DNA of 64,000 nt from Antitrichia curtipendula (taxonomy: Eukaryota > Streptophyta > Bryopsida > Hypnales > Leucodontaceae). The DNA lies in the NCBI GenBank assembly GCA_951230915.1, contig OX579634.1, positions 17,634,725 to 17,698,724 of the forward strand, in the 5' to 3' direction. This document shows positions 4,003-47,297 of this stretch, piece after piece. The notes beneath the pieces were generated by a model that worked only from the letters and a program-made list of their open reading frames with translations, was not told the DNA's origin and searched no databases. Position numbers and translations under genes: made by a program. Numbering within the stretch: the stretch's first letter is position 1; every line of letters starts with the position of its first letter.

Positions 4003-4924
4003 CCCCTAAAGGTCAGAGACTATGTTTTCACCAAAATCGCTCCAAAACTGCTATTTCTAATAGAAGTACCAAGTTTTAGAAAAAAAACATTTTTGGAAAA
4101 ATGTAACTGTAGGATCTTGTATTAAACTAGTTTGGCAAGTTGTAGAAAAAATTCCAGATATTTCCACGGTGTGGATTGCAAGAAATTAGCATTTGAATTG
4201 ACAAAAATTCTTCTTTTGTCCCTGCGAAAATCCGGGCAGCTGCACTTCACAAGGTCACATTTGTATGAAAAATGTCCAAAATGATGGTTACTCTTTGGAT
4301 TCATTCTTCAAGGCAAGTTGGCTACATGCTTGAAAAATTTCAGATCATTTGAGATTGTAAAACATATAGGGAAAAAAATAGTAAGTAGAAAGAGGTAGAG
4401 AATGTTCAAAACACTAAATTGTAAAGAATTTATTTATGAAATTGAAAAATGTCAGCCCCAATGGTTGTAATGTTGTAATAAAAATCTACATCCAATGTTT
4501 GATTTTTTTTTCAAAAATATTGAAAATTGAGTTAAATAAAGGACTTCAAAGTTTATCTTAGAGTAGAGATTCCTTAACTACCCTCAAACTAAGACTCCTC
4601 ATAACTTTCATCTCATTAATCAAAATGGAATGATTCAAATCTTCCCATGTATATATAAATATAAAGAATCAATTTTTTATTTTAAAAAAAAGTAATTTTT
4701 AAAGAAGTTTTTCAGCTGCTTGGGCTGCCCGCCGACCAATGAAAATGACATATCATGCAACAACTTTTTAACCACGTAGTCAAAAGTTATAAAAATTGTT
4801 GGGCCTTAAAGCTACTCTTTGGGCACAACTTCTGTGAAAATTTCAAAGAAAAAAAAAATTTCGGTCATAGTGAGCTGCTCAAAATTGCTATGTTGTCAAA
4901 AAACAATGTTTGGTCCTTTAGGGG
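4003..4924 (+). mobile_element. TTAA-flanked element, copy 1 (subfamily A)
   Basis: This 922-bp element starts CCCCTAAAGG and ends CCTTTAGGGG, with TTAA directly outside both ends (3999-4002 and 4925-4928). It carries the subfamily A body: CCATTTCTAGTACAAGTACC-like text near the left end, then GTAGGATCTTGTATTAAACT, GATTGCAAGA and TTGTATGAAAAAATGTCCA. No ORF of useful length and no transposase. A 4-bp TTAA duplication with CCC-starting ends is characteristic of piggyBac-type DNA transposons, so it reads as a non-autonomous piggyBac-like element. Confidence 0.75.
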
Positions 4925-5167
4925 TTAAGAGAAAGAGACTACACCATCTTTGTATAGGACAAGTTGACATATATATTTTATAGAGTAGAAAATAAATTTC
5001 AAAACCTAGATAATTATGAATTATTTGTTGGTGGCCTCCATGTACAATTTTGTCCCGTCCTTGAAGAAGTCCATGTCATGATCGTAAAGGGATGAAATTT
5101 TGCCATAAGATAATTAATTAATTGCACCTAAAATTGTCCAAATAAACATTTGAATATAGTTCTTAGT

Positions 5168-5497
5168 ACTCCCTCCATCTCCACATGATCTTCCTATTGG
5201 CTTCATTTTTTTTGTCTCCAAATGATCTTTTTGTTGCACTTTGTGACATTGAAAATTGGTCAAATTCAGCTTTTGATTGTTATCTAGGACCAACTAAACA
5301 ACTTGGAGCAATAGTTCTCCCTCCCTCCATGTAATCATCAATTGAAAGACAAATGAAATGGTTGAAAGGATCAATTGTTCTTATATTTTACATCAAACTC
5401 TACTTACAACGCAAAACAAGTGTAAAAAATGTTATTTTCTGCCTTAATCAAGAACATTTTGTCCAACAAGAAGATCATTTTGAAATAGAGGACATAT
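5168..5497. mobile_element. Stowaway-like MITE, degenerate
   Basis: The left end TACTCCCTCCATCTCC resembles the CTCCCTCCRTC terminus of Stowaway (Tc1/mariner) MITEs. An imperfect inverted partner near 5460-5497 (AGAAGATCATTTTGAAATAG) matches the left CATGATCTTCCTATTGG region. The outer right end is eroded, so the boundary is approximate. Confidence 0.4.
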
Positions 5498-6415
5498 TTA
5501 ATTATTTAACTATTTATTGGATCTTCTTGGGAGTCAAGTAGATTCCATATCTTTCTAGAATGCATTTTATAAAACACTATATAAATAAACTATAAATTTT
5601 CAAAGGAGTGAAATATGTATATGGATAAGATTGCCTCCAAACTCTCATGTAAACAAGAACCTACTTGCATAACTACATGCAATTATCATTTTGAGTTTTT
5701 TGAGTTTTTTTTGAGAAATCAGAAACTTTCTTTAATTATTAACAATACAATTAGAATAGAAACGCAATTGATGGCCTTAAATGTTTTATTGGATTTTATA
5801 TAGCCTTAGGCACCTAGTAAGATCTAATTTCTTAGAACTCCTTTAAATCTTCAATCATTCCTTTCTTAGAAACTGATTCGTACAGCCTCTTGCCTAATAT
5901 GAACTCCTGTTATTTTTAAGTCTAGGGTTAGTTTTATAAACACCTCTTCAAGACTTTGATAACTCATAGTTAATTCATATAATGTTTTAAAAAATGCATT
6001 TAAAAAGAATTTAAAATCCACATTTGACAACCAATAGGGCCCCAAAAAAACTTTTTCAATATAATAAAGGAAATCACACTTTTAGGTGTAGTTACCTTGT
6101 TTAAATAAAAGATATGATAGTGGATAACTAAATGCAACATAATGCATAACTTTACTTGTGCACAAATTGATGATTTATCCAAGTCCAACTGTGTCCATTT
6201 AAATTATAATTTTAGCTATACTACTTGGAAGAATTCTCTAATTGATTCAATCATGGTCCATTCACATGGGTTTTTTTTCCAATAAGTGCATATTTTGAGA
6301 TAAGACTATGAAAGGTTTTACGCAACTATTATATTCAATGGTTTGATTTTGATGGGTGGGGCATTGGAATTGGTACATATACCTAGGTGAAATATTGAAG
6401 TGGTTGAAACCTTAC
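5498..6415. other. AT-rich stretch without gene
   Basis: ORFs of about 62 codons on both strands are low-complexity translations of AT-rich DNA. No ends or repeats recognised. Confidence 0.4.
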
Positions 6416-6419
6416 ATAA

Positions 6420-7365
6420 CCCCTAAAGGTTTTTGACTATGTTTTCACAAAAAACGCTCCCAAACTGCCATTTCTAGTACAAGTACGAAATTTTGGAAAA
6501 AAAACATTTTTGGACACATGGAACCGTAGGATCTTGTATTAAACTAGTTTGAGAAGATGTGGAAAAAATTTCAGAAATCTCCACCGTGTAGATTGCAAGA
6601 TATTAGCATTTGAAGTGACAAAAACCCTTTTTTTGTCCCTGCGAAAAAACAGGCAGCTGCACTTCACATGGTCACATTTGTATGAAAAAATGTCCAAAAT
6701 GGTGGTAACTCTTTGGGTTCATTCTTTAAAGCAAGTTAGATACATGCTTGAAAAATTTCAGATCATTTGGAATTGTACAACATATAGGAAAAAAATAGTA
6801 AGTAGAAAGAAGTAGAAAATGATTCAAAACACTAAATTGTTAAGGATTTAATTATGGAATCGAAAAATGCCAATCCAAACGATTGTAATGTTGTAATAAA
6901 CAATCTACACCTTGTGTTTATATTTTTTTCCAAAAATATTGAAAATTGAGTTAAATAAAGGACTTCAAAGTTTATTTTAGAGTAGAGATTCCATAACTAC
7001 CCGCAAACTACCCACAACTAAAATTCCTCATAACTTTCATCTCATAAATCAAAGTGGAATGATTCAAAGCTTTCCTTGTGCACATAAATCTAGAGAACCA
7101 ATTTCAAATTTTTATTTCTCTAGAAAATGATTTTTAAAGAAGTTTTTTTTGCTACCCGGGCTGCCCACCGAACAATGAAAACTATATATCATACCATAAC
7201 TTTTTAACCATGTGGTCAAAAGTTATGAAAATTGTTGGGCCCTAAAGCTACTCCTCGGGCACATCTTGTGTGAAAATTTCAAAGGCAAAAAAATAAAAAT
7301 TCCATTCGTGGTGAGCTGCCCAAAAATGCTATGTTGTCAAAAAACGGTGTTTGGTCCTTTAGGGG
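6420..7365 (+). mobile_element. TTAA-family element, copy 2, with ATAA target duplication
   Basis: A 946-bp subfamily A copy, starting CCCCTAAAGG and ending CCTTTAGGGG. Both flanks are ATAA in direct orientation (6416-6419 and 7366-7369). If these bases belonged to the inverted ends, the right side would read TTAT. This shows the four bases outside CCCC/GGGG are a target-site duplication and fixes its length at 4 bp. The body aligns throughout with copies 1, 3 and 4. Confidence 0.8.
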
Positions 7366-7369
7366 ATAA

Positions 7370-15975: not shown

Positions 15976-17327
15976 TGAGATTAATATTTTAAAATCTACA
16001 AACCTATAAGTTGCAAATAAGTCGCAAATGAGTCACACGAGGCGTGACTTTTGCATTTGCTACACCTTTTTCCTAGATTTTAGAGTGTCCACTGCAACTA
16101 CAAGTCTCCAAATTATCACTAGTCGCAAACTGGTCACAAGTGTCCTATGCAACTGAAAAACTAGTTGCATAATGTAGTTGCAAAATCCCTCATTTTCTTC
16201 TAGTGAATCTACTTGGAACTTTGTCAACAAGCTTTTTTAACGTGGTTGTTATGGGGTATTCATTGCTACTTGAGGTTGGCTACTCAATTCATGAATTGTA
16301 CAAGTTATTGGCGACTAATTTGCAACTAATGTATAACAAACTCATTTGCAACTCATCTGTCTCTTATGTACGACATATCTATGATTCATAGATTTTGAGA
16401 TTTGAACCTTAATTATTTGTAGATTTTGAAATTTCAAATCTAAGTTTATTTTAGTTTTCAAGAATTCAAATATTAATATTCAATAGATTTCAGTAGTTTA
16501 GGAAACTTTACAATTTTATAAGTTTAAATTTTTTTTGGATTTTATATATTAATAGATTTCTATAGACTGTAGAAATGTATATATTCTAAAAAAACTATAA
16601 ATTGTAGAAATCTTAGAACTCCATTAGTAGAATTCAATACATAAGAGTACAACAACTTACAAGTCTTTTGTGTCCAACCTAATGGTACTTTTGACAATTG
16701 ATATGGGACAATTGATTCAAGACAATTGGGGGATGACTATAAAATAACTAAGAAACGACTATTGTCATTTTACAATTGTAGTTGTTTTCTAGTCATTTTT
16801 AGAGACTGCATATTGATACGGTGGATTACACAGAGTGTTTACATCAACTATTGTGATGAATATTGGATGTAGAATAACTCATATTTATTCTACATTTGAA
16901 CTTTGTTACAACCCTTGTAATCCTACACTTCATTCTACAAAAGCTTTGTTACTAAAAAAATGTATAATTACACTTTATTCTACTACTTTGCAGCTAAAAT
17001 AATGTACTAATGATGTAAAATAATGACATAAAACAAATTACATAAGATTTAGTGCTTATAAAGAGGGCTATAGTCACTGGGTAGTTGTATAGGACACTTA
17101 GTTGCTTTTAGCCGGTTGTGGCAAACACATTTTTCTTCCATTGACTCAATGTATATACCACAAAGTAGGAGCTCAAGTTAGTCCCTCAAGGCTTTTGTAA
17201 AACACAAATTTCAATTCCAATTGCTATAGAGAATTTTTAGGGGTTTTCAAAATTGGTTTAAACTTTGAATTTGGATAAAAATTGAAATAGTTAGAGTAGG
17301 ATCACTAGGATGAAGTTTAGTCCTTAA

Positions 17328-18261
17328 CCCCTACAATCTCAAGGCCTTTTTTCTCTTAAAAATCATTCAAAACTACCATTTCTAATGAAAGATAAAAAAC
17401 TTTTAAAATTTTCATTTTTTTGGCATAATTATCTAACCACAAGATCTTGCACCAGACTAGTATAAAAATGTGTAATAAATTTTTTAGAAACTTTGATCAT
17501 GTAGATTGTTAGATATTTGCGTTTAAAGTGAAGAAAACAAGTTTTTTTGCACATTCTGTGACTAGATTTTTTGGCTTTGAATCTTCTTCATTTAAAACTA
17601 TTAAATTACTGAGTCTGAGGTTAAATTTTTTATGTTGAAGATGTGAGTTGAGAATTAGGGAAAAATATTGTAAAAAAACACACTTGATTTTCATTCATTA
17701 AAAATTGTTAAGTAGAAATAAGTCCAAGATTAAACAAAACACTAAATCTTTAATAGCTCTAAGATGAAAATGAAACACCATAATTCCAAAGGTTAGATTT
17801 TTTTTGCAAACAAACATAATTCTATCAGACAATTTTTCCTGAAAAATTGTGAAAATTGCATTCAAAAATGATTTCTATAACTTATTTTTTTAAGCAGATT
17901 TTTAGACTGGACAAAAAGCAAGATTGTCCATAACTTTCTCATTATTAGTTCCAGTAGAATGAATCAAAGCTTCAAATGTAAACAAAAATATAATCTTTGA
18001 GAAAAAAAAAATTTTAATTTTAAATTCAAATTTTTATAGATTTTTTGTACTCCCTGGCAAACTGCTTTTTGGACCTGTTGTGGCATAAATTATGCTTCTA
18101 GGCACCAATTGAAATAAAAGTTATATTTTTAGAAAGCTAATGTGATTCCCTATCTTTTTTAAAAACTTAAAAAATTTAAAATCATGTCAAAAATTGAGGT
18201 CACACAAAGTCTTTCCAAATTCGCAAGAGACCTTTGAGGGGTCACTTGGGACTTTAGGAAT
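17328..18261 (+). mobile_element. TTAA-family element, copy 5 (subfamily B)
   Basis: A 934-bp element starting CCCCTACAATCTCAAGGCC, with TTAA just outside both ends (17324-17327 and 18262-18265). The right end is eroded (CTTTAGGAAT instead of CTTTAGGGG). The body aligns with the reversed copies at 30019, 36093 and 46400. It interrupts dispersed repeat D sequence. No coding capacity. Confidence 0.65.
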
Positions 18262-18265
18262 TTAA

Positions 18266-18990
18266 AGATTTAGATTTGGTTGAAAAGAACTTATGTTTAT
18301 TCAATTAGATTAAAACAATAAGTTTTGAATCTTTCCACAATCTACAACAAAAACTTGATGACAAAAGTCAATTTGGAAACCTCTGACAGTGAGGCCGTAG
18401 CATTTAATGAATGAAGTTTTTAAGGTTCATTGAGATCCAAAATTCCATCTGCCTATAACTTTTGATAGAGAAGTCCAAAATTTAAGTGTTTTAACATTTT
18501 TTATAGTTAATTTTTTTCTCTACAGATTAAAAATACTAAAAGTCTAAAAATAATAATTTAAAATTAAAATCTTAAAGTAGTAGTTATTGAATAGACAGTA
18601 AATTAAAATCTTTTGAAACAACCAAGAAACAATTTATAAAAGGGATCCTTTAGGAAATCTTTAGAAGATTCTAAAACTAATTCATGCATAGAAAATAGGT
18701 TAAAAGTAAAGAAAATAATGTAGGATGAAGTTTGGTCTTAGACTTGGATGAAAATAATAATTGTCCATCCGATTCAAGTTAAACTTAAAACTTAGATACT
18801 AGGAATAATTCTAGAATAACCTCTAAAACCAAAAGTAAATTGGGGCTCAAAAGTTAGTAGGAATTGATGGATGAAGTTTTGAAAGAGCAATTTCAAGTTA
18901 AAACTTCATTCAGCCATAACTTTCACTAGAATTCTCTTGTTTCAATTATTCTTACCATTTTAGAAATGGAAAACCGTGCTCTATAAATTA
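18266..18990 (+). repeat. Dispersed repeat D, copy 2
   Basis: Same ordered blocks as at 38160-38770: TGCCTATAACTTTTGATAG, AAACAACCAAGAAACAA, GATGAAGTTTGGTC and ATTGATGGATGAAGTTTTG. Ends are not resolved. Confidence 0.5.
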
Positions 18991-20879
18991 GGATAGCAAA
19001 AATTTGATTTTAATCAACTTCATATCAAAAGACCAAAAAATTTGGTTTGATTAAGCTAGTACAATCAAATATATTATTTATCAAAGTTTGAACCTTTTTT
19101 CTTGTGTGATTTTAACTAATTAGAGCAACCACTCATCAAACATTTTTCCATTGCTTGGAAGGCACAATGGACCGTGGTTAGACATATGATGTAGGAAATT
19201 AACATTGAAAACTTAAAGAACCCAGTTGTACTTGTTCTATCTCAAGGATGGAGATAAAATGCTCACAATAGGGAATTTCAATGAAAGCAACATATTTTAC
19301 ATGCATCAGAACTCAATTATAAGATGTTGTCAATGACCTTGATTTCCTAGGTCAAATCTACAAATGGCTCATCATTTACATAATTGCTAATAATGGAGGG
19401 TTCCTAGAACTACCTCTAATTACAAAAAATCTTGTATATGTTGATCTACATGTACCGATTATACTCCTCAAAATGAAGCACAATTCTACCTACAAAGTAC
19501 ACTTCTAAATTTTCCTTTACATGCCATCCTACTAGCACAACTATAGCATGAAAAAGTTACACAATTTCCCTCACTCTCTCAACATCATGTTAGCAAATGT
19601 CTCAATAAATGACTACATTATTATATCACATGTCTAAAACAATTTATAATATATGATGGCAAACGAATGCTAACACCATCACAATTCTCAAAACAATTTA
19701 ACACCAACAAATTTTTTGTAACAAATACAATTGTTTATTGCATCCCAACTCTTTAGTCAATTAGACTCCTTACCTACTTGCCACCATCCCTATAAAATAT
19801 ATAGCCCTAATTTTAAGCTAATCCATATCTTCCTTCCTCACATCCCTTTATATTTAGCATAGAAAATTTCACTAGCTAATATAAAAATAATCCCATTGTC
19901 CATACCTAATATAACATCCATTTTCACATAACAAATAATTCAACCAAATTTCCATTTATCAAAACTACAGTAGTAAAAGATAGGGTAACCCTAAACAAAA
20001 ACATCTCCAAAACTATCAAAACTTATCAATGTCAATAGATTTTAGGCAACTAAAATCAAATGTACATTAAATGGATGCATCATTCAACATCAACAACAAA
20101 TACTCAAAGATCACTTTCATCAGCTGCACTCTAAGACACTAGATACATCACAACCCTACTTCACATTCCTCTCATACACATCAATTTAGATGAATGTAAA
20201 TTTGGCTCAAACATTTTTATTCACAAACCAATAATTTCAATACAAAAAGACAAACCACATCTCTATGATAACATAAAAACATCATTCTTTTCAATACAAT
20301 GGTTATAGGAACAATACTAAGATAGTATTTGCATATATCCAAATTCAAGCACTACTACAAAATGTTCTACAACAGATAAACTACAAAATCACCAAATGGA
20401 CACATTCATACAATCCAAACAAATAAGATGCCATCCATTATACTAACAAAAATACTAGTTTTTTTCAACATCCAACTTCTCAACCGTCTAGTCACTTGTC
20501 CACTACAAAACAAACAATACTATTCTCCACATAAAAGAGACAAAATGTTTGTTTTCCTTGGACCACCATATATCCATTAATGGAATGGAAGAAGACTTGC
20601 ACAACTCGCACACAATTTTGACATCAATCAAGCCTTCAATTGAGCTCGCCTAGCAGCTTCTAGTAAATCTTGCAATCTCATCATATTCATCACAATTGAT
20701 ATAGATTGGTGTCATTAAAATACACCTTAAGACCTTCTAGAAGTAAAAGGAAGTAACAACAAACTAATATTTAAGTAATAGAAAAAATACTGATAACAAT
20801 AATATTAAAATAAGGCAATATAGGCTTTTTATACAACAAGGACTTCAATTAGTCCAAGAGTTGTGATCCTTTACATTTA
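18991..20879. other. AT-rich stretch without gene
   Basis: No ORF of interest. It borders the 3' end of copia-B and may include that element's decayed 3' LTR, but I cannot define one. Confidence 0.35.
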
Positions 20880-20929
20880 TGACATATGAATGTGTAGTTT
20901 CACTATCCTTAACATTTCCATTGAAACTA

Positions 20930-21594
20930 AATAATTCAAATACTATATTCATCCACTATCTCTAAATTTTGCATACAATACATGCGCTTTTTTCCTACAG
21001 CTTTTGTGAGATAATTTGCATACATATTTTTTGTGCTACAAATCCTATAATATTCTAATTTGAGTTCATTATTGCATATTTAATCAAAAATGTAATGAAA
21101 TTGCATTTTGATGTGTTTTGAGTTAGTGCAAAACCTGGGATTCTCACTTAAAGCTATTGCACTTTGATCATTGCAAAAAATTGTGGTTGGAAAGTCTTGA
21201 TTTTTTCTAAGCTCTCCAAATAGTTGCCATAACCATGTCGCTTCTTTCACTGCTAAGGTAGTCAATATGTATTCTACTTCAACTGTTGATAATGTTGTAG
21301 TAGTTTGTTTCTTGCTTGCCCAACTTATGACCCTTTTGTAAGTAGAAATAAAAAAATGTAGATTTTTTGTCAAATATGTCACCCATCCAATCGTCATCAA
21401 AATAAAACTTTAATGTTAACATAGAAAATGTTCCATCTCCTTTGTAAAAGATGCTATGGTGCTAGATTCCTTTCAAGTAGCAAAAAATCCTTTTAACTAC
21501 AATCTAGTAAAAAGCTAATGGATTTTGTAAATATTGAGAAGTATGCATTACATCATAATTAAAATTGAGTCTTGTACAAGTTATAGATGATACT
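20930..21594 (-). pseudogene. Copia-B: 3' part of pol (RNase H), broken
   Basis: Minus-strand translation gives a Ty1/copia RNase H: KKQTTTTLSTVEVEYI, then EATWLWQL and CNDQSAIALSENP, then KHIKMQFHYIFD. Further 3', in decayed frames, there is YLTKAVGK. Next to 21594 is TCTRLNFNYDVMHTSQYLQ, the stretch linking reverse transcriptase to RNase H. The upstream part of the same gene resumes at 27711 beyond copia-A. Frameshifts and stops make it non-functional. Confidence 0.85.
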
Positions 21595-21774
21595 TTTTAG
21601 AATGGAGAAAAAAAAAGTGTTTGATGTAAAATGAAGTATGTATGATAAAAATATTTTTTTACATACTCCAATATATATCTTTTTTAGAATCACAATTTTT
21701 TTTGTTGAGAGCCACAACTCTCTTACTAATTAGTATACTACTCAATATATTATATATGTACAATATGTCTAATA
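21595..21774 (-). repeat. Copia-A 3' LTR
   Basis: About 180 bp, beginning TTTTAGAATGG (decayed TGTTAGAAT) and ending TCTAATA (decayed TCTAACA). It aligns with the 5' LTR on both sides of the foldback inserted there. Confidence 0.75.
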
Positions 21775-21839
21775 TCCTCACTAGTATACTACATTAAATT
21801 TCATCCATTTGGATGAAGGTCATAATACAATCATCCATG

Positions 21840-22780
21840 ATGGTCTTCTTCTCCTTTGACTAGGAATTGGTGTCTCATTCATCTACTTGTGGTTGCGCCA
21901 TGCTGCTAAGCAGTTATCCCTCTCTCCCTTTTATATCTTGAGCACAATGTATCTATAGTTTTGAGGACTTGAAGTTGATGGTAATAGTGTTGTGGCATGA
22001 AGGCAAGTTGTTGTAGTGCAACGGCACTTTGATCCAACACAACAATGCGCAAGGTCCTTTGTTTGGCGCGCCTTGGCTCTTGGCACTTGTGTGGGCCGTG
22101 AGCTACTATGATCGCAATAACAAGCTGTGGAGTCAAAAGCAACAAAGAACTTGGTCCTTGAGTGCTTACTATTGATCCTCCAACATATGGACAACTGCAA
22201 CCTTGCCCGCAATAGGAGCAAGTAATAGGGTGGGACAAACGGTTGAGGTTTTGTGTCTTGTTGCCCTCCTTGTCTCGAATCTTCTCTACCTTGTGAATTT
22301 GCACAATGTCTTTGACGTGTTTTTCTAGGACAAGAAGGCCAGCTCCTCTAATGAATGGGAGAATGTGACCTTGTTGTGCTTAGCGGGAGGTCAAATCTTC
22401 ATGTTGTTCAAGTGAATAGGTATTGTTGCTCTTACTTTGTTTGTGCTGATTTGATGTCCACTTGTTGTTGCATTCTATGTTTTCTTTGTATATAGTTTTG
22501 TTGTAGGAATCATTGGTCACCACCTTGGGTACTTTGCTACATGATTGATTTGGCCTCATTGGTTTTTTCTTTGCTCCATTTTCTTTGTATTGTCTTAAGA
22601 GTCTTTGATATAATATGTGCTTGTAGAAGATAGTGTCTCCCACTCAAAGATGTTTCAAGGTGATGAAAGTTGCGCTCCCATGTGAGAAAGACTAGTTGAG
22701 AGGTGTGTACTAAGTTATAAGTGTTTGAAAGGTTGTACTTGATGGAGGTAAAGGAACCAGGCATATTCCAAGGCTAGTCA
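21840..22780 (-). other. Region between copia-A RNase H and its 3' LTR
   Basis: It contains overlapping minus-strand ORFs of 75-132 codons (21906-22304, 22380-22643, 22537-22764). None matches a copia domain that I recognise. It may be an extended 3' untranslated region or another insertion. Confidence 0.35.
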
Positions 22781-22789
22781 TACAATGAA

Positions 22790-25700
22790 GATATTTGTCA
22801 CGTGGTAGATATTTGGCAAGAATATCAACAATCATATCAACTGTACATAGAGATAGATTTGAATTCAATATCTTAAGTTTGGTTAGAACTTGCTCACAAG
22901 TAAAATTATATTTGGTTTCAATATGTTTAGAACATGAATGAAATTTAGGATTGTCTATTCAAGCAATAGTACTTTGACTATCAAAATATATAAGTGTAGG
23001 ATGTTTTTGTGGAAATCTAAGTACTTAAAGTAATTTTTGCAATCAAATTGCTTTAGCAATGCCTTTTGCCAAGACCATGTGTTGTAATTATGTAGAAGAA
23101 AGAGCTACTGACTGTTGTTTCTTTTTGCCCTAGGAGATAACACTACCAACTAAAAAAAACAATAACAAGAGGTAGAACAACATGTATCTTTACAGCCAAC
23201 CCAATTAGTGTTAGAGTAGCCATGAAAAACATTGCTTTGTGTGAAGATTTTTGGTAGTGTATGAACCTTTGACAAATTTCAATGTTTGTTTCAATGTTTA
23301 TACATGTGAATGAGCTAGGATTGAAAGATACTGGCTTGAATTGCCGATTATATAAGTACAATTAGGTCAAGTATTTAGTTATTAACAATAGCATGCATAA
23401 TGCTACCAACTATTTGAGAATAAAAATGTTGATCTTGTTGTGATGAAATTTCAAATAAAACATGTTCTTCATTATATACTTGACTGCATAGGTGTATTCA
23501 CATGATTGCAATTTAACATGTTGTATTCTTTATGTTTAGAATTGAGATATTTTGGTTGATGGTAATTGTCCATCCTTCAGTTTTGTTTTTTAAGATAGTA
23601 TTGCCAAGAGTATAATGAAGATCACCTTCAACTGCCATGTCAAATTCCATTTTTAGTATAGCTTCAATACTTTAAATAAAAGTCAGTTGATTATCCATAA
23701 AAATACAGTTATCAACATAAACAATAAAATGATAAAATTGTGAACACTTCTTTTTTGAAGTTAATGCTTGCATCTGATTCTGATCTTTTTGCAAACTAGA
23801 TTTGAACTTGAAAGGTATTGAAAAGTCTTGAAGTATAGACATTTAAATGTCTTCTTGAATAAAGCTATTCATGAAAGCAATCTTGACATCCAATTGATGG
23901 ATTTCAAAATTATGTTGAGTAGCAAGGACTAATAGCACTTTAGTGGAATTGAAGTTAATAGTAGTTAAAAAATCTCCATGTAATCAATACCTTGTATTTG
24001 GATGAAGCCACAGGCCACCAAATATGCTTTATACTTGTTTAAAGTTCCATCAACCTTACTTTTTAAAACATTTTGAACTAATAGGTTTTTGATTTGGTGG
24101 TGAAGGTTGGAAATCTAAGTTTTATTCTTGAGAATTAAATTGAACTTGATTGGTTGTTTACCATTGGTGAGAATCAGGCCGAGACAAGGCTTCTTGCATA
24201 ATTTGAAGAAGATCCAAAGAAAAATGAACAACACTGGCTTGATATTTCTTGGGATTGGACTTCTTTGTGGATGATTGCCCAACAATTGATTCAAGTAATT
24301 GTCTTGTGGGTTTTATTTTCCTTGCACGTAGAGCTAAAAAGCTTGGAGGTGCATATGGTGATTTAAAAGCACAAGTGACTTCAACTTCATGAGGTAAAGG
24401 TTCAACAACTAGATTTGAATCTAAAGATAATTTGTTGGACTATTGTCATTGAATTGAATACTTTGGTGTAATATAGTTGATAAAGATTGGCTTTGTGGAC
24501 TTAATATACTTTGTTATATTGAAGAATTTATAGTAATTATAATTGCGCTTGAATAGAAGGTTGAGGCAATTCTTGAATTTGAGGAAAATCATTTTGATAG
24601 TTCCCTAGAGTAGGTTGTATTTTAAGTAAAGCACAATCTATCAAAATCTTTGTTTCATTGTCTTCTTGTAGCAAATGCTTTTCTGAAATTTCAACAAGAA
24701 TTTCATCAAAAATGACATCCCTACTCTCTAGATATTATTAGTTTTTTAGTTTGTATATTCATCAAACAATAAGCTTTAGTTTCTTCATTGTAGTACAAGA
24801 AAATTGCTTCATGAGAATGGGAGTCTAGTTTATATCTTTGTTCTTGGAAAATAAAAACATAAGTTTTACATCCAAAAATTTGAAGATAAAATCAGGGCTT
24901 TTTTTTAGGACTTGTGTCCTGTGTGTTCGCTTCACTGGAGAGGCTAGTTTTTGGAGGAACGAAGCCAGAGAGGCCAAATTTTTAAAGTCTGGCCAAATTT
25001 TGCCTAAAAAAAAAGTCTTGGATAGGATATGTCAAGTTGTCAGCCATGCTAGTATAGCCTTGGTAGGACTCCTAATTTGGAGATAATTAGTTGTATGGAG
25101 TGTTTTCTCCTAAATATTTTTGGTAACTTTGCATAGGATAACATTGAAAGGATTGCTCCTACTGATGTTCTATCTTTGTGTTTTGACACACCATTCTGTT
25201 GTGGTATGTAAGCAGTGGTCGTATTTTGTTAATACCTTATTTATGGCAAGAGAAATTAAATTCATAAGACATGTATTCACCATCCTAGTCATATCTTAAT
25301 ATCCTTGTTTTATGATGTGTTTGTTTTTCTACATATTTCTTGTAGGATTGAAATTTAGCAAATGCTTCAAATCATTATTTATCAAATAAATATAACATAG
25401 TCTTGTTAAATCATCAATGAATGTGATAAAATAAAGATAAATTGTATATGTTGCAATTTGCATTGGTCTACATATGTCTAAATGGATTAATTCTAATATT
25501 CCAATAACTCATCTTGCACCTTGTTCAAGAAAATTTTCCATATATTGCTTGTCTTCTATGCAAAATTGGCATAAGGTGATTTGCTTTTCATCAAAAGATT
25601 CAATACCTTTTGTCACAACTTCTGTTTGTCTTAGTCTTTATTGATTTATATGGCCTAGCCTTTAATTTCATGATCAACTTTATTTAGTGTTGTAGTAATT

Positions 25701-27240: not shown

Positions 27241-27245
27241 CATGG

Positions 27246-28126: not shown

Positions 28127-28380
28127 TCTTGTCTGATTTCCGTAAGAGTGGCAACATGTTTACAGTGTTCCATATGAAATTTGGTCAATTTATCATCAAT
28201 ATATTTTGATTTGTAAATGAAAATAATCTTTAAGGTGCAGTTGTGGATTACTTGAAGTTCAAGGATGTAATTAAAGCTAGCTTTATAAGTCACTTTGAAT
28301 TTAAATTCTAATATATTTTTCACTTCAATCCAATAACCTTTGTGATACCAAGTCCTAAAAGATTATTTCATTCCATAAAT

Positions 28381-28590: not shown

Positions 28591-30018
28591 AATTGATTTT
28601 AGAATTAAACAAACTAAATATTCATTGCCTTATTCACAGATCTTTAGGTTGGCGCATGTATATTGTATTATATTAATATCCCTTGGCAACAAGTTGAGTT
28701 GTATACCTTTTACAAGAAGAGGTGTCAATTTTCAATTTTTTTTTCAATTTATGATTTATATTAACTTATATAAATCCTTTGGACTTGTATAGCATTTTTC
28801 CAATGACCTCCAATAGGCCCAATCATTGCTTCTTTAAATGTTTATGGTGAATCATCCTAAAGTGCGGCAACCATGACTTCAAAATTATATTATTGTTGCA
28901 ATTTCCAAGTAGGTTTGAAGTTTGGTTTGGAACACTAGAATGTTGTTATAGGACTCAAAGTCTGTGGACTTTCTATATTTTCATTGTCAAAGTTGACATC
29001 TTTATTATCAAATGTAGTGGTGGATGTATTATATACATTATTGTCCAAATCAATTGTATATTGAGTTGGAGAATTTGTAAATAGTCTTATGTGTTTGGAT
29101 AGGAGGTAATTACATACCCTCAGGTTTCCAAAATATAAATTGTCTTGCATCATCTTCATTATTTTGTAAGAAAATTTTGATACCTTCTTTTGTAATTTGA
29201 GTGGGTTTTTAAAGTATTTAACATAAAAACTAATGTTAATTTTTCAAGTAGGTTCATGATATAAGTAATAAGCTTTAGAAGTTTGATTACAAACCATGAA
29301 TGTATATGGTATATTTTTGTAGTCAAATTTTTGTCATTTTTCTATTAGAATGTGCATATAGGCAATAGATCCAATTTTTTTTGTATAAGTCATAGTTGGT
29401 TTTATTCCAGCCTACAATTATTGAAGTATTTGATTATTAATAGAATTAGTTGATAATCTATTTAGTCCCAAAATAATTTTTAAATTCAGTAAATTGAAGC
29501 ATGGAACAAGCACTCTCAACTAAACTGCAGTTCTTTTGCTCCATTATCCAATTTTGGTCTGGAATATACGGAGTAGTTATTTGCCTTATTATACCATTTG
29601 TTTGATAATACTAATTAAATTCATTAGATGTATACTCATAGCCACCATCACATCAAATCATTTAATCTTACAATTTGTAAAATTCTTGATTTTAGTTTTA
29701 AATGTTTTAAATATCTCATTTTTGTATTATAAAAAATAAATTTTCATTTGTCATGATTTTTCATCAATAAAAGTGACAAATATAATGATCCACTATAAGA
29801 AGGTGTTTACATGGGACCGCAAATGTCACTATGAACCAATTCTAGAAGATCTTTAGCTCTTATGTCTTCTTTAGTAGATAATGAAAGTCTATGTTGCTGA
29901 CTGATTAAATAACTAGAACAGAAACTTAAGTATGAATTTTTATCAATGTAAGTCTGTGTACAAAATCACGTGATTTCATTCATCTTAACTTTTGTATTCC
30001 TACTTAACCTAGCCTTAA

Positions 30019-30944
30019 CCCCTAAAGTCCCAATTGTCCCCTCGGAGGACAAAATGGATTTTGGGCAGGCTCCTACAGTCTCAATATTTTTTGTGATTTT
30101 CTGAATTTTTTTTGTGAAGATAGAGAATCACATTATCTTTCCGAAAATGTAATTTTTATTTCAATCGGTGCCCGGGAGTAAAAGTTATGGCACAAAAACC
30201 CCAAGTTTTAGTTTGGCGGGCAGAAAAAAATCCTCAAAAAAACTTTAAATTAAAAAAATTTAAAATTTGTTTCATATAGATTTTATTTTTATTTGCACGG
30301 GAAGCTTTTATTCATTCCATTTGGATTTGTTATGCAAAAGTTATGGTCAATCTTATTTTTCGGGCAGTTAGAGCATCTTTTTGAAAAAAATAACTTGTAG
30401 GACTCATTTCTGAACTCAATTTTAACAATTTGAAAAAAGAAAAAGTTTTACAAGGTCAAGATTTCTTGCTAGAAAAATCTCACTGTTGAGATTAGTATAT
30501 TTCAATTCTATCTTAGAGCTATTAAGGATTTAATTTTTCCTTCAATCTTGAACCTACTTCTACTTAACAGTTTTTTAACAAGTGAAAACTAAGTGTTTCT
30601 TCTTAAATTTTTTTTTCTAGATTCTCAACTCAATTCTTCATTATAAAAAATTAGAAATTCAAAATCACCCGAGCAAAAAATTTTAGTTGAAAAGGCTCAA
30701 AGCCAATAAATGTAGTTGAGCAAGGTACAAAAAAACTAGATTCCTTCACTTTAAATGCAAATATCTTGCAATCTACATGGTCAAAATTTCTGAAATTTCT
30801 TCCACACATTCTTACACTAGTCTAGTACAAGATCCTACGGTAAAATATGCAAAATAAACATTAAATTTGTTTTTTTGCTCTTTGCTCTAGAAATGGCAGT
30901 TTTGAGTGATTTTTGATGGAAAAATGGCCTTGGGACTTTCGGGG
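30019..30944 (-). mobile_element. TTAA-family element, copy 6 (subfamily B), inside copia-B
   Basis: 926 bp. Ends are CCCCTAAAGTCCCAA and CTTGGGACTTTCGGGG; TTAA flanks both sides (30015-30018 and 30945-30948). In reverse complement it aligns with subfamily A over the blocks CTGCCATTTCTAG, GTAGGATCTTGTACTAGACT, TTTCAGAAATTT and GATTGCAAGATATTTGCATT. It interrupts the GAG-pre-integrase/integrase part of copia-B, so the family was mobile after that retrotransposon inserted. Confidence 0.8.
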
Positions 30945-30999
30945 TTAAATGCTAAAAGTCAATAGAAATAACTAGATGTGAGCTCTGTAGAAGGAGAAT

Positions 31000-32773: not shown

Positions 32774-32834
<61 letters not shown>

Positions 32835-34857: not shown

Positions 34858-35803
34858 GTCAAGTTTGCAAATCAAAGATCCAAGGCTAAAGTCCAAGTTC
34901 AACTCACAATAGTGTCAAGTTTGAAAATTAGAGATCCAAGGATAAATTTTTAACCTCTAAATGCCCAAGGCCTATTTTGAGCATCTTGAAATTTGCTCTA
35001 AATTGAACAAAATGCCAACATTTTGATAAGTTGTATCAATTTTTTTTGAATTGTAATTGTACAAAATCAAACTAGACATATTAGAGATCTCATAGGAAAA
35101 GAAAATACAACAATATCACATATGGAGTGAAAGATTATAATTTTTGACCATAAAAATGTTAAAACTACAAAAGTGATGTGAAGTCTTTCAATCCTCTTTT
35201 CACAAGTCAAATAAAAAAATTTGGTGACCAAAAATAAATGAGATTAAAGGGCCTAACATGTAAAACCCCATTCAATTTATGGCTTCTTAAAATCTCTTTT
35301 ATAATTTATTTTTTTAATGAATTTTGAATGTGATTTTTTTTCCAAAATCTAGTTTATTTGAAGCTCATTTTCAAGAGCTCTCAACACTACAAGAAGTCAA
35401 GATTGCAATGGCTAACTTTGCACAAAATCTTGAATAGAAAAATCACTATAATTTATTTTCAAGATTGGATTTTTGATGCTAAAACTAGACTTCAAGAAGA
35501 ACTTTTCAAAAAATAAAATACTAAAAATAGCAACTTGGTTAGGTTTTATTTAACTTCAAAGTTTTGCAAACACCAGATTTGAGTGCCTTGGGCATTTAGG
35601 GGTTAAAGTTCAACCTATAAGAAGTCAAGTTTGCAATCAAAGGTCCAGCAATAAATTCAAAAGTCCAGGCCATAGGAAGTCAAGTTTGCAACTCATAAGT
35701 CTAGACTAAATTCTAAGTGCAGCCTACAAAAGTCAAGTTTGCAAATCAGAGGTCTAAGAGCTAAATTCTAAAGTCCAGTTTTAGGGTGTCAAGATTTGAA
35801 CTT
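34858..35803 (+). repeat. 55-bp minisatellite array split by a TTAA element
   Basis: Six units begin GTCAAGTTTG at 34858, 34914, 35624, 35679, 35732 and 35788 (the last diverged). Subtracting the 653-bp insertion (element plus one TTAA), spacing is 53-57 bp throughout. Units share AATCAGAGGTC, GCTAAATTCTAAAGTCCA and AGTTCAAC blocks with moderate divergence. Confidence 0.75.
34954..35602. mobile_element. TTAA-family element, copy 9 (subfamily C, 649 bp)
   Basis: Ends CCTCTAAATGCCCAAGGC and, inverted, CCCCTAAATGCCCAAGGC match over 18 bp with one difference. TTAA lies on both sides (34950-34953 and 35603-35606). The body is unlike subfamilies A and B. It sits inside one minisatellite unit whose sequence (ATAAATTTTAAAGTTCAAC when rejoined) fits its neighbours, confirming insertion at TTAA. 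Confidence 0.8.
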
Positions 35804-36092
35804 TGAGTTACACTAATTCAACTGTGAGCTCTCAATTGAATGCAATTAAAAAAATATTAGATTGGAAGTATGGCAATTTGAGAGTTGTAGGTGCTAAACA
35901 TGAGTTAGAGAAGAGACAGGATTTCAAGACTCAAGAGTGCATGTGAACCATCAAACAGGGAATAGTTGACTACCCTAACTAGGATTTGATGTTGATTAGG
36001 ACAAAGAAAAAGCCAAATAGAAAAATAGTTGACTTTTAGATATTCTAGAATTTAATTAATAGTTGAAAGAGGCTAAGCAAACTTGTCTTTAA

Positions 36093-37558
36093 CCCTTAGT
36101 TTTGGATAGGCTTGTGTGACCTCAATTTTAAACAAGATTTTTTGAAACTTAAAAAAAAAAGAAAAAAATCAGATAACGTTTATGGGAATATAATTTTTAT
36201 TTCAATTGGTACCTATTGAGCAAAAAAAATAACAACCCTAATGGAATTGTCACTTTTAATGTAGTATAGTTGCAAAGTGATTCGTTCACCAGGAATTTTA
36301 TAAATGGAATAGGAACAATTAATTCAATCATACAATCAATATGTCACATACACTTACAACAAAAATCTAATCCCTGTATTTGGAGCAATTTACAAATATA
36401 TTGGAGTACAAGACAAATTATTAAAAGCTGAATTTATACTTGAAGGAGTTCACCAGTTTACATCTAACTAAAGGTCCAAAAATAATTTCTTACATTATAA
36501 AAAGAATACCAAGAGAATGAGATAGACAAAATGACAAATTGTTTAAACTATATGCTACTCCAGAAGACAGACAACTATTCTATTTCAACCAGTATAAAGA
36601 TAATTTGCTTCTATTCCTATCCAAAGTAGTTGTAGGGTTTTAAATCCTCTTATTACAACAAGTAGCCTATATTCTTCATAGAATGTGAATATAATTAATA
36701 ATTTAGCCCCTTTTTATATTACACATTGCAAAATGTCAAAACTTAAAATTTTTGTATGCTTACAGTGTTTGGGAATAAAAGTTATGCCACTATGAGTCCA
36801 AAAAGCAACTCGAGGGGAAGCCCCCCAAAAAATCACAAAAAATTGAAATTTTTTTTTTTTTTAATTTTTTTTTCAAAGATTTTTTTTGTCTAAAGCTGAA
36901 TCTTTGATTCATTCTATTTGAACTAATGGTGAGAAAACTATGGACAATCTTATTTGGGGGGCAATCTAAGCATCTTCTTGAAAAAATAACTTATAGAATT
37001 CATTTTTGAATGCAATTTTTATAATTTTTCACAAAAAAATTGTTAGACAAGGTTAAATTTGTGTGCTAGAACAATCTCACCATTGGAATTATTGTAATTT
37101 AATTCCATCTTAGAGCTATTAACGGTTTAGTTATCCCTTCAATCTTGAACCTACTTCTACTTAATAATTTTTTAATGAGTGAAAATTAAGTATTTTTTTG
37201 TTGAATTTTTTTTCCTAGATTTTCAAATCAGTTCTTCAACATAAAAAATTAAAAGAATCAAAATCAATGGTGTAAAAAATTTATGTTAAGAAGATTCAAA
37301 GCCAAAAATTAGTCAAAATTAGTCAAAATTAGTCAAGCAAGGTGTAAAAAATCTTGTTTTCTTCACTTTAAAAGCAAATATCTTGCAATCTACAAGGTCA
37401 AAGTTTAAAAAAAATTCCATGCATTTTTATATTAGTGTAGTACAAGATCCTATGATTAGATATGTAAGAAAATAATTTTAAAAGTTTTTCGCTCTTTGCA
37501 ATAGAAATAGCAATTTTGAGTGGATTTTGATGCAAAAAAGGCCTTGGGACTTTAGGGG
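36093..37558 (-). mobile_element. TTAA-family element, copy 7 (subfamily B), with internal insertion
   Basis: The right end CTTGGGACTTTAGGGG is intact and the left end CCCTTAGTTTTGG is eroded. TTAA flanks both (36089-36092 and 37559-37562). Subfamily B text stops near 36215 (CAATTGGTACC) and resumes near 36763 (GGGAATAAAAGTTATGCC), so about 550 bp of foreign, unrecognised sequence has been inserted between. Confidence 0.65.
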
Positions 37559-37562
37559 TTAA

Positions 37563-39408: not shown

Positions 39409-39412
39409 TTAA

Positions 39413-41332
39413 CCTCTAAAGGTTTTAAACTATGTTTTCACCAAAAATGTTCCAAAACTATCATTTCTAGTACAAATACCAAATTTTTGAAAAAAAAAAT
39501 TTGGGACACATGTAACTGTAGGATCTTGTATTACACTACTTTGAAAAGATATGGAAAAAAATTCAGGAATTTCCACCTTGAAGATTGCAAGATATCTACA
39601 TGGTGGAAATTTCTGAAATCACCATATAGATGACCAACATATTAGTGTTTGAAGAGAATTTATTTTATTTTTAGGCCTTGCAAAAATTGTGTAGTTGCAC
39701 TTCTCAAAGTCACATTTGTATGAAAAAATGTCAAAAATAGTGGTGCTTCTTTGTATTCTTTCTTCAAGTCAAGTTGGCTAAATGCTTGAAAATTTTCAGA
39801 TCATTTGGAATTGTACAACATAGAAAAAAAATAGTGAGCAGAAATAAATAGAGAATGATTCAAATGACTACATTGTTAACAATATATTTATGAATTTGAA
39901 TAATGCCAATCCCAATGGTTGTAATGTTGTAATAAACAATGTACACCTACTATTTTTTTAGTTTTTTTTCTGAAAATATTAAAAATTGAGTTAAATAAAG
40001 GACTTCAAAGTTTTTGTAGAGCTAGGTTGTAGAGTAGAGATTCTATAACTACCCGCAAACTACCCACAAACTAAAACTCCTCATAACTTTAATCTCATTA
40101 ATCAAAATGGAATGATTAAAAACTTTCCATGTATATGTAAATCTAGAAAATCAATTTCAAGTTTTTATTTATTTTTAAAGTAATTTTCAAAGAAGTTATT
40201 TTTAGCTGCCTGGATTGCCCACCAAGCAATGAAAACTACATACCATACAACAACTTTTAAACCACTTAGTCAAAAGTTATGAAAATTGATGGACCTTACC
40301 CCCTAAAGTTCCATGACTATGTTTTCACCAAAAACGCTCAAGAACTGCCATTTTTAGTACAAATACCAAATTTTTGAAAAAAAAGTTTTTTTGACACATG
40401 TAACCGTAGGATCTGGTCGTATGCTGACTTGAAAACAAGTGGTAAAAATTTTAAAAATTTCCACCACGTGGATTGCAAGACATAAGCATTCAAAATCACT
40501 GAAATCATTTTTTTGATCCTGAGAAAAATCGGGCAGCTGCACTTTAGAAGCTCACTTTTCTATTAAAAAATGTCCAAAATGGTGGTGCTTCTTTGGATTA
40601 TTTTTCCTAGAAAATTTGACTACATGCATAAAATAATTCACATCATTTGGAATTGAACAATATATAGGAAAAAAATAGTAAATAGAACAAAATAGAGAAT
40701 GATTCAAAATACTAAATTGTTAAGAATTTAGATATGGAATTGGAAAATGCCCATCCCAATGGTTGAAATTTTGTAATAAGCAATCTACATTCTATGATTT
40801 TATTTTTCTCAAAAAAATATTGAAAATTGAGTAAGATAAAGGACTTCAAAGTTTATTTTAGAGTAGAGTATCTATAATTGCCCGCCATAACTTTTGACTC
40901 ATTGGTCAAAATGGAATGATTAAAAGCTTTCCACGTATATATAACTCTAGAAAACCAATTTCAAATTTTTGTTTTTGAAAAAAGTGATTTTTTTGATCTG
41001 CCCGGACTACCCGGACGCGAAAAAAAGTAACATACTAGGCCATAACTTTTCACTCCTCTTTCCAAATGTCATGAAAGTTAGTGCATATGAAAGATATTCC
41101 TTGTGCACAAGTTCTATTAAAATTTCAGCCAAAAATATGAAAATCTCCAGTCACAGGTACCTGCCCAAAATTTCTATACTGCCCCAAAATGCATGTTGGT
41201 CCTTTAGGGATTAAATCTACTCCTTGGGCACATGTTGTGTGAAAATTTCAAAAATGAAAAATAAAAATCCCATTCGTAGTGAGCTGCCCGAAATTGCTAT
41301 GTTGCCAAAAATGTAGTTTAGGGCTTTAGAGG
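39413..41332 (+). mobile_element. TTAA-family element, copy 3 (subfamily A), interrupted by copy 4
   Basis: Ends CCTCTAAAGG and GCTTTAGAGG form an inverted pair; TTAA flanks both (39409-39412 and 41333-41336). Copy 4 splits it at 40296-41214. Without copy 4 it is about 1005 bp and aligns throughout with copies 1 and 2. After copy 4 it resumes ATCTACTCCTTGGGCACATG, matching AGCTACTCTTTGGGCAC of copy 1. Confidence 0.8.
40300..41210 (+). mobile_element. TTAA-family element, copy 4, nested in copy 3
   Basis: 911 bp, starting CCCCTAAAG and ending CTTTAGGGA. Left flank TTAC, right flank TTAA (41211-41214). In copy 1 the same position of the host element reads GGGCCTTAAAGCTACTC without interruption, so the target was a single TTAA that was duplicated; the left copy later mutated at one base. 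Confidence 0.85.
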
Positions 41333-41689
41333 TTAATCGTAAAGGATGTGCAAAGAGGACCAGAAATCGGAGTTTGAGAAAAACATAAGATGGAATTCCT
41401 TGAAGCATCCAAACTTGGTTTGGTGCTATGTTTCTTTTGTACTATTCTGAAACCTTCCTCTGACACCCTTTCTACAAATTGAGATTTACTTTACAATTAA
41501 TTCTAATATCTACACTAAATAGGAATATTAAGGGGACCAAAAAATTAAAGAGACTTATTGTAGAAAATTGTAGATGTTTGAAACATGATGTACAACCTCC
41601 AGACACTTCAATAACTATTGATGTACTTTACATCAAAGATCCAAGGTAGATATATATGTAGTGTGCAATGTCGATTAATTAGTATGGGT

Positions 41690-44860: not shown

Positions 44861-45810
44861 TGGAAGTACCAGTTACAGTGGAACTGTACATGATTCCAGC
44901 TTATCAAAAGAATCATACACAGGTCAGTCGGAGAAAAATATGTCCAGATTCACAACATTTGAAGCTCATGACACGAGACAATGTTATCATGACGGGACGG
45001 TTATTTAAACCTAAAAAGGAAAAGTTTGGGGGAGTTCTGTACACTAATAATGAAAATTGAGGGTTTGCAACACTAATTACAAATTCTAACTCTAAATAGC
45101 AACATCACTGCTAATGTTACCAACACTTAATGTAAGCATGAGCATGATTTGTCAACTAATTGAGAATTAGAGTGAGTTATATGACATGATAAATAACACT
45201 ATAGGTGGGTACCATAACACAAAATTTCAATATTAGTGTAGTAATCATCCAAGAAACATTATTATCATAATCAACTATGAATGTTGGGATGCAATGAATC
45301 TAGATGACTATATTCAAATACCACAATTAGGTACATACCATTGTTTATCAATCAAGCAAGGGTCACTCCTTAATTTCGTATCCTTGAGAAGCAACCCCCA
45401 ATAGTGAATAAAATTGTCTTATATGGCTCCTCAAACCCCCTTCCAATCCTTGAAAAACAGCTAATAACTCCCTCCTTGGTATCTAACCAAGCATAATAGC
45501 TTACGCGCACGGGAAGGACCACTACTCAGTCATCCAATCTAGTATAGAATCACCAATTCCAGAAAAATATGAAACTATGCAGATGCTTCTTGCATTCTTT
45601 CCAAGGTGTGCTATAATATTGAAATCAACAAGGCATGACTTCAAAAAATCTACCCATTCAACCTTGGGCTCTTTTCTAACTTTTGTATATTCTAATCCAC
45701 TACTGTATGTTCTTGGATTTCCCCCAACTTTATTGCAAAATTATCTTTATGTGATTCAAAAAGGAGTTCTAACTTCCCACACTCTCAATAATGCTTGTAC
45801 TTGTGATATA
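44861..45810. other. Stretch without gene
   Basis: Nothing recognised beyond short ORFs. Confidence 0.3.
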
Positions 45811-45920
45811 AATTTGCTCTGTTTAAGGTGATCCTGTGATGACGTGCAAGAAATAAGGCTTGAGATATATACATATACACGAATTTGCTCTGTTAAGGTG
45901 ATCGTATGATGACGTGCAAG
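45811..45920 (+). repeat. Direct repeat, ~40 bp, period ~71 bp
   Basis: AATTTGCTCTGTTTAAGGTG followed by ATCCTGTGATGACGTGCAAG at 45811-45850 recurs with few changes at 45882-45920. Confidence 0.8.
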
Positions 45921-46042
45921 ACCTGACTTGCATCCTGTAAGTTACTATTTCGAAGGGGCATTTTGACAGGAGACCAACACATGTGCGACCTTGTAATTCC
46001 TAAGAGTAGGTCTTCCGTGCATGCGTAACTGCGTAGCTTACT

Positions 46043-46456
46043 TTGGAATCCGCGAGTTGTGGCCATAAAACTACAAAAAGCAGACCTCGACCAAGGCTCC
46101 GTTGGGGTGGAGTGGCCGGGTCCCAACTTGGAGATAACTTCGAAGGTTACGTTACGTCATCTTTTATGATTGGAGTGGAAGCTCAGAAAGCCCACCAGCA
46201 CAAAAGAAGCGGACGGAATTCACACCTGGACTTTACTTTTAACCGGGCTGGCTTTGGTGTGAAGAATCGTCCTCACGCATTGGAACTCACTGTGCCGTGG
46301 TACAAAATCCCAAGCAATGTGGAAGCCTGTGTGCAGACTGGTGTCGGTTTCCCTATGGGCCTACTTTCAATTGATAAATGCTGTTCTACTGCAAAATCTC
46401 CCATCACAGAAGATTCTGGCTCGGGGGACAATTTGGGGCCGGGTAGGTTCCTGTGA
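46043..46456 (+). CDS. Unrecognised ORF, 137 codons, possible gene fragment
   Basis: The longest non-repeat ORF of the window that I cannot assign. Composition is protein-like (Gly, Pro, Trp and Cys present, low in Asn and Ile), with HALELTVPWYKIPSNVEA in the middle. There is no signal peptide, membrane segment or known motif. Its last ~20 codons run into the eroded left end of TTAA copy 8, so the native C-terminus is probably lost. Confidence that it is expressed is low. Confidence 0.25.
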   Translation: MESASCGHKTTKSRPRPRLRWGGVAGSQLGDNFEGYVTSSFMIGVEAQKAHQHKRSGRNSHLDFTFNRAGFGVKNRPHALELTVPWYKIPSNVEACVQTGVGFPMGLLSIDKCCSTAKSPITEDSGSGDNLGPGRFL

Positions 46457-47297
46457 CCTCAATTTGTAGAATTTTTTTGGGGGATTTTTTAAGGTTGTGC
46501 GGTTCTGCGAGAGCTTTGTGGATATATAATTTTTCTTTCAAATGGTGCCTGGGAGAAAAAGTTATGCCAAAAATAGAGTTCGGTCTTCACAAAAAGTCAA
46601 AATAAATTTCTTAAATATTTTTTCCAAAATCTATGTCTTTTTGTGTACATTTGAAGCTTTGATTCATTCTATTTGGACTAATAATGAAAAAGTTATGGAC
46701 AATCTTAGTTTTTCGGGCAATCTAAGCATCTTCTTGAAAAAATAACTTTTAGGATTCATTTTTTAATGTAATTTTTACAATTTTCAGAAAAAAATTGTTA
46801 GACAAGGTTGAATTTGCTTGCTAGAACAATCACACCGTTGGGATTATGGTATTTCAATTTTTTTTTAGAGCTATTAACGATTTAGTTATTCCTTCAATCT
46901 TGAACCTATTTCTACTTAACAATTTTTTAATGAGTGAAAATTTAGTGTTTTTTTCTTGAATTTTTTTTCCTAGATTCTCAACTGAAGTATTCAACATATA
47001 AACTTAAAAAATCAAAATCAGCAATACAAAAAATTTAAGTTGAATAGGTTCAAAGCCCAAAAATCTAGTCAAGCAAGGTGCAAAAAAACTTGTTTTCTTC
47101 ACTTTGAATGCAAATATCTTGCAATCTGTTTGGTCAAAGTTTCTGAAATTTCTTGCATATATTCTCATACTAGTCTAGTATAAGATCCTACGGTTAGATA
47201 TGCAAAAAAAACAATATTTATAGTTTTTTGCTCTTTGCAATAGAAGTGGCAGTTTTGAGTGTGTTTTGATGGAGAAAAGGCCTCGGGGCTTTAGGAG
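46400..47297 (-). mobile_element. TTAA-family element, copy 8 (subfamily B), left end eroded
   Basis: The right end GCTTTAGGAG is followed by TTAA (47298-47301). The body has GGTGCCTGGGAGAAAAAGTTATGCC, GGGCAATCTAAGCATCTTC and GTAGTATAAGATCC-like blocks in subfamily B order. Left, GGCTCGGGGGACAATTTG matches the subterminal part of copy 6, but no clean CCCC/TTAA is seen. Confidence 0.6.

Follow-up and report, generated by a model that had tools for sequence, protein, structure and literature searches.

Nine short TTAA-flanked elements in a moss genome window very probably belong to the piggyBac superfamily

The window studied here is a 64,000-nucleotide stretch of the genome of the moss Antitrichia curtipendula (C2:17634725-17698724 of the assembly searched, which holds 400,189,583 bases). 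It contains nine non-coding elements with related ends, and this report concerns their relation to the piggyBac superfamily of DNA transposons and to transposase-encoding elements elsewhere in the assembly. Element limits were drawn from self-comparison, alignment and profile search, and the elements fall into family A (A1-A4), family B (B1-B4) and an outlier, C. They are listed below in window positions, together with the tandem array into which C is inserted.

A1: 4003-4924 (3999..4928 with flanks), plus strand; TTAA on both sides.
A2: 6420-7365 (6416..7369 with flanks), plus strand; ATAA on both sides, a non-canonical direct repeat.
B1: 17328-18261 (17324..18265 with flanks), plus strand; TTAA on both sides, right end degenerate, its boundary set at the TTAA (the profile match ends 3 bases earlier, at 18258).
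B2: 30019-30944 (30015..30948 with flanks), minus strand; TTAA on both sides.
Tandem array of 55-bp units: 34858..35789, plus strand; anchors at 34858, 34914, 35624, 35679 and 35732, split by C.
C: 34954-35602 (34950..35606 with flanks), plus strand; 649 bp, TTAA on both sides, only the ends shared.
B3: 36093-37558 (36089..37562 with flanks), minus strand; TTAA on both sides, about 530 bp of extra sequence at 36230-36760.
A3: 39413-41332 (39409..41336 with flanks), plus strand; TTAA on both sides, interrupted by A4.
A4: 40300-41210 (40296..41214 with flanks), plus strand; nested in A3, with TTAC on the left and TTAA on the right.
B4: about 46409-47297 (46409..47301 with flank), minus strand; left end lost, TTAA on the right.

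An earlier, sequence-only reading of the window had described nine elements sharing one type of end. The underlying observation is real, as judged from both the delimited elements and the excess of end motifs: CCYCTAAAG occurs 10 times against 0.84 expected, and TTAACCYCTAAAG, with up to two mismatches, 21 times against 4.96 expected, a count reached in none of 100 shuffles. All nine elements were found, but those starting at 39413 and 40300 are not neighbours, A4 lying inside A3; the shared ends are present on most, but the left end of B3 is degenerate (CCCTTAG) and that of B4 is lost. By profile and alignment comparison, pairwise identity in the window is 74-87% within family A and 71-83% within family B. 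Because the A profile also matches family B, with B2 covered from end to end (E 2.1e-63), A and B form two branches of one lineage; element C resembles them in its ends only. Neither profile recovered a further convincing copy in the window, the next best matches having E-values of 0.019 and 0.025.

None of the window elements contains a stop-to-stop frame of 100 amino acids or more; at its broken end, B4 shares about 50 bases with a frame at 46037-46456. Pfam scans covered both strands of 41.4-51.4 kb, the minus strand of 18.3-28.3 kb and 59.1-64.0 kb, and ten single open reading frames, with most of the nine elements lying outside these parts. No piggyBac or other DDE transposase domain was found there, the domains being limited to copia pieces, a DUF7869 domain and a lipid-transfer protein gene. 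Likewise, a tblastn search of the window with four transposase frames of the host returned weak matches only (best E 0.010).

The flanks of the elements point to a four-base target. Of 17 readable ends, a number that omits the missing left end of B4, 14 are bordered by TTAA, a sequence that accounts for 0.8% of window positions; this is in keeping with the earlier description of almost all elements as TTAA-bordered. At the fourth position of the right flank, all nine elements have A (the B1 boundary having been chosen at TTAA). The two ATAA copies bordering A2 form a direct repeat and likewise fit a duplication of 4 bp. Among loci fetched from the rest of the genome, TTAA stood at 41 of 45 ends, many of these loci having been selected by a TTAA pattern and some overlapping.

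Insertions into sequences with undisturbed relatives allow the duplication itself to be considered. At the site of A4, A3 reads CCTTAC-(A4)-TTAAATC, where A1 has CCTTAAAGC (TTAA) and A2 has CCCTAAAGC (CTAA). At a second locus, a B element lies within an A element as GAG-TGAA-(B)-TTAA-AT, where A1-A3 read GAG-TTAA-AT and A4 differs. Both nested insertions fit a 4-bp TTAA duplication of which one copy has since mutated, as the sequence-only reading had proposed in preference to a 3-bp duplication. In the tandem array, removal of C and one TTAA leaves a spacing of 57, the other units being spaced by 56, 55 and 53; this supports a clean insertion, at a place where 3 and 4 bp are not separable.

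These observations bear on the possibility that the elements are Tourist-like miniature inverted-repeat transposable elements (MITEs) of the PIF/Harbinger superfamily, a class common in plants, in which a 3-bp TTA or TAA duplication and an extra A would mimic TTAA. Plant Tourist MITEs do use TAA or TTA, a substring of TTAA, according to a review (PMC10004981). An invariant A at the fourth right-flank position is unexpected, however, if that base lies outside a 3-bp duplication; A2 is bordered by ATAA at both ends, and neither the flanks nor the nested insertions displayed the 3-bp pattern. Together with the transposase evidence below, this makes a Harbinger origin very improbable.

The end type is abundant far beyond the window. 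Exact copies of TTAACCCCTAAAG number 9,594 on the forward and 9,756 on the reverse strand of the assembly (19,350 in all), as opposed to 12 and 6 (18) for a reversed-pattern control. The genome thus carries 48 exact ends per Mb and the window, with four, 62 per Mb; its density is not unusual for this genome. Applying the window's ratio of nine elements to four exact ends to the whole assembly would give some 40,000 elements, or roughly a tenth of the genome; this is a crude estimate from a single window, whereas the 19,350 ends were counted. A large genome share, as initially suggested, is plausible, but has been measured only indirectly, through the 19,350 exact ends in 400 Mb. A scan of viral contigs with an A-end pattern gave no matches.

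The assembly also encodes many transposases of the piggyBac type. A search with the piggyBac family model, PF13843 (DDE_Tnp_1_7), gave 116 scored matches from 907 candidates, all above the curated cut-off (best 5.1e-80), and none in 14 control genomes. Many of the 116 contain internal stops, and many others contain none. The best 30 domains form ten groups at 70% identity (single linkage), whose representatives are 36-69% identical to one another. Aspartate occupies the catalytic columns in 30, 29, 30 and 29 of these 30 domains, with the DDD triad present in 30, 29 and 30 of them, in columns that align with piggyBat. Comparisons with the PDB agree: a transposase matched piggyBat (9c0f, E 1.1e-21) and piggyBac (6x67, E 2.9e-20) in the PDB, a profile of 20 sequences matched the same proteins at 3.9e-53 and 3.6e-47, and Foldseek paired a structure predicted with the 20-sequence alignment (mean predicted local distance difference test score, pLDDT, 71.6) with piggyBac 6x67 (E 3.5e-23). 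A model built from a single sequence was discarded (mean pLDDT 33.6). Several frames have a tail rich in cysteine and histidine, seen by eye; no Pfam model matched it.

The question for the transposases was whether any is flanked by the end type of the short elements, CCCCTAAAG. A full-length element with A-type ends lies at C1:4387183-4394172 (6,982 bp) and was located by extending one of the fetched transposase loci, L051, leftward. It aligns with a copy on C9 over 6,998 bp at 99.2% identity; the similarity starts and stops at TTAA, the flanking sequences are unrelated, and the ends read CCCCTAAAGGACCAGCC... and CCCCTAAAGTTCCTTCACTATG... The C1 copy carries a 967-codon frame that matches PF13843 (E 1.6e-77) and no other Pfam domain, and the C9 copy has one in-frame stop within the part searched. 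A third copy, on C5, was checked at its left end and transposase: the transposase is 98% identical, and the left end is 99.5% identical over 195 bp next to a different flank. Since the copies are 98-99% identical, they may have moved recently. The short element A4 resembles this element at both extremities, its positions 1-375 matching the full-length right end (67% over 382 columns) and its positions 699-910 the left end (74% over 215 columns), so that it is built like an internal-deletion derivative.

The sequence-only reading had named a full-length relative with the same ends and a DDE_Tnp_1_7 transposase as one check on its proposal and the length of the target duplication as another, and both results favour piggyBac. 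The relative also counts against the Harbinger alternative: the main frame of this same-end partner matches DDE_Tnp_1_7 alone in Pfam, rather than the Harbinger nuclease (DDE_Tnp_4/Plant_tran), the genome as a whole not having been searched for Harbinger families.

Other transposase loci broaden this picture. A second subfamily is 56% identical in the transposase and free of stops in the matched part; its right end, TTAACCCCTAAAGGACCATGACTATGTTTTGACAG, follows the match at a distance of about 1.2 kb. Among nine loci of 7.0-8.5 kb around transposases, six held complete elements bounded by TTAA and by similar left and right ends: L041 (5,681 bp), L042 (5,153 bp), L047 (5,307 bp), L048 (5,505 bp), L049 (5,310 bp) and L050 (5,491 bp). 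At E 0.01, PF13843 is the sole Pfam family matched by their main frames, and their ends (for example CCCCTGAGCGCCC, CCCCTAAACGACG and CCCCTCAAAGCCC) are similar, but not identical, to those of the short elements. The same test revealed no end pair at L039 or at the unextended L051, and a single end at L040. A palindrome-like block of the kind GGACA...TGTCC was seen by eye near the ends of L041, L048, L049 and L050 and in B2, and is perhaps a shared subterminal site. The CCCTAAA in the A and B termini equals what we take to be the plant telomere heptamer, probably by coincidence.

A piggyBac cluster (L016, L028, L035) with a B-type end downstream was considered as a B-type partner and rejected, the end pointing away from the transposase and the unit also sitting between 833-bp inverted repeats (99% identical). 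For a 70% identical pair (C1:44586565 and C1:3471300), no right end could be recognised over a distance of about 2.5 kb. The unit on C2 at about 107790-115340 (L055, L035, L056), where the piggyBac gene lies between the 833-bp inverted repeats, also holds the first part of a B-type element, has A-type pieces at its borders and has a 98.5% identical relative at C1:42.47 Mb; it may be a larger composite element that includes the piggyBac gene.

Taken together, we put the probability at about 95% that the nine window elements are non-autonomous, MITE-like piggyBac transposons, mostly of about 0.9 kb. The decisive point is that a full-length element with A-family ends encodes a DDE_Tnp_1_7 transposase, and the fit of the insertions to a 4-bp TTAA duplication supports the same assignment. 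Terminal inverted repeats in the piggyBac superfamily start with CCY, as do those of the window and full-length elements, some window ends deviating (the 3' end of B1, the 5' end of B4 with CTCC and the 3' end of A4 with TCCC). The superfamily itself is known; what is unexpected is its host and its abundance there. Sola3 elements also target TTAA, with a Sola transposase, whereas the transposase linked here is of the piggyBac kind. Kolobok is a further TTAA-targeting superfamily, for which MITEs have been described in Xenopus; its terminal bases are RR according to the same source (PMC6004289), as opposed to CC here, and the transposase linked to the moss elements is a piggyBac one, so a Kolobok origin is scarcely credible.

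Several observations count against the piggyBac assignment or complicate it. Along the shared ends, identity between the A elements and the full-length element is only 62-74%, so their source is an older or a sister version and not this copy. The B elements share only about 190-220 bp of the full-length right end, no B-specific full-length partner was found, and C has nothing but its ends in common with A and B. Four convergent pairs of ends lying far apart on C1, taken as candidate full-length partners, all proved to consist of short elements without a transposase match. At the insertion sites, the flanks of A4 are unequal (TTAC and TTAA) and those of A2 are ATAA, A2 lacks TTAA at the site of A4, the other array units lack TTAA at the place where C inserted, and the array cannot tell a 3-bp from a 4-bp duplication.

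In the proposed mechanism, transposase from a full-length relative would bind both ends of a short element, which would be excised at TTAA and inserted into another TTAA, duplicating the target. Excision in this superfamily is precise and passes through TTAA hairpins, and would presumably take the same course in the moss. Cut-and-paste transposition with TTAA target site duplication is described for piggyBac in PMC11707139. On the simplest account, A-clade full-length elements would supply the transposase for A and plausibly for B, and we infer that the C1-type transposase or its 56% identical cousin moves both; C presumably belongs with them, although only the ends are common.

The short elements could alternatively be piggyBac-derived but long dead, no longer served by the intact transposases. 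Identity within the window families is only 71-87%, the full-length A element matches the A ends at just 62-74%, and the six other full-length elements have different ends. On the other hand, the family of 98-99% identical copies has A-type ends, the right end of the second transposase subfamily is of that type too, and two B-type elements at L045 are 89% and 92% identical to B4, closer than any B pair in the window. We regard the long-dead scenario as unlikely, though it deserves serious consideration. More broadly, the chances seem to us evenly balanced that this moss represents a land-plant lineage in which piggyBac is a leading DNA transposon class. In that view at least ten transposase groups coexist among the 30 best domains, several of them having intact frames and near-identical copies; they would still be capable of mobilising short derivatives by the tens of thousands, and may have arrived horizontally from another kingdom.

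The host is a land plant, as had been supposed. Two of three LEAFY candidates matched and represent two exons at one place in the assembly; one exon is identical at 103 of 106 residues to PDB 4bhk and at clearly fewer to 2vy1, which we take to be the proteins of the moss Physcomitrium patens and of Arabidopsis, respectively. The D in KMRDYVH is presumably a moss feature. Among the few plausible host genes in the window is a lipid-transfer protein-like gene at 2228-2656 (minus strand; PF14368, E 3.4e-09). Scattered copia retrotransposon pieces (SH3_retrovirus, Pol_BBD, RVT_2) occupy 18300-28296 (minus strand), and a disrupted gene encoding a DUF7869 domain (PF25273, E 9.9e-32, stops read as X) at 59434-61772 (minus strand) is perhaps another mobile element. 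A (GGAGTT)43 hexamer array at 58780-59041 (98% matches) adjoins a perfect 19-bp tandem array at 58599-58701.

A review places PiggyBac among seven angiosperm MITE superfamilies (PMC10004981), a fern annotation lists 1,230 PiggyBac pieces amounting to 0.00% of the genome (PMC6890710), and another plant annotation likewise has trivial amounts. The word piggyBac does not occur in the main text of the moss genome papers PMC9946827, PMC9247546, PMC6723128 and PMC9631980, and both occurrences in a further one, PMC10619864, are of "piggybacking". Among the matches listed, work on the "piggyBac superfamily" concerned animals or animal cells. Moss piggyBac may already be published, and these negatives do not show otherwise. 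Nor is a DNA-transposon-rich moss unique, since the Pohlia nutans paper reports 23.68% DNA transposons.

PiggyBac is a main genome-engineering transposon, and a plant genome with intact, apparently young families offers plant-adapted transposases. Such a genome also allows study of how plants silence this class, lets descent and transfer be weighed as routes into mosses, and shows that TTAA-flanked plant MITEs need not be Harbinger.

Compared with piggyBac of Trichoplusia ni and piggyBat of Myotis lucifugus, the moss elements share the TTAA target and its duplication, short terminal inverted repeats, and a DDD transposase of the same Pfam family and predicted fold; the cysteine- and histidine-rich tail seen by eye in several moss frames may correspond to the C-terminal cysteine-rich domain of the superfamily. 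They differ in their land-plant host and in size, the A-type element measuring 6,982 bp and six others 5.15-5.68 kb. Their stop-to-stop frames run from 624 to 1,261 codons, whereas the PDB chains of piggyBac and piggyBat have 578-594 residues, and the moss ends belong to CCCCT, CCCCA and CCCTT types. Animal genomes contain piggyBac MITEs, short non-coding derivatives with piggyBac ends and TTAA; the moss elements appear to have the same build in a plant host. PIF/Harbinger Tourist MITEs are likewise short plant MITEs with an AT-rich target, but differ in their 3-bp TTA/TAA duplication and their transposase. In contrast to plant MITEs filed as PiggyBac, the class of the moss elements is tied to full-length elements that have the same ends and long open transposase frames.

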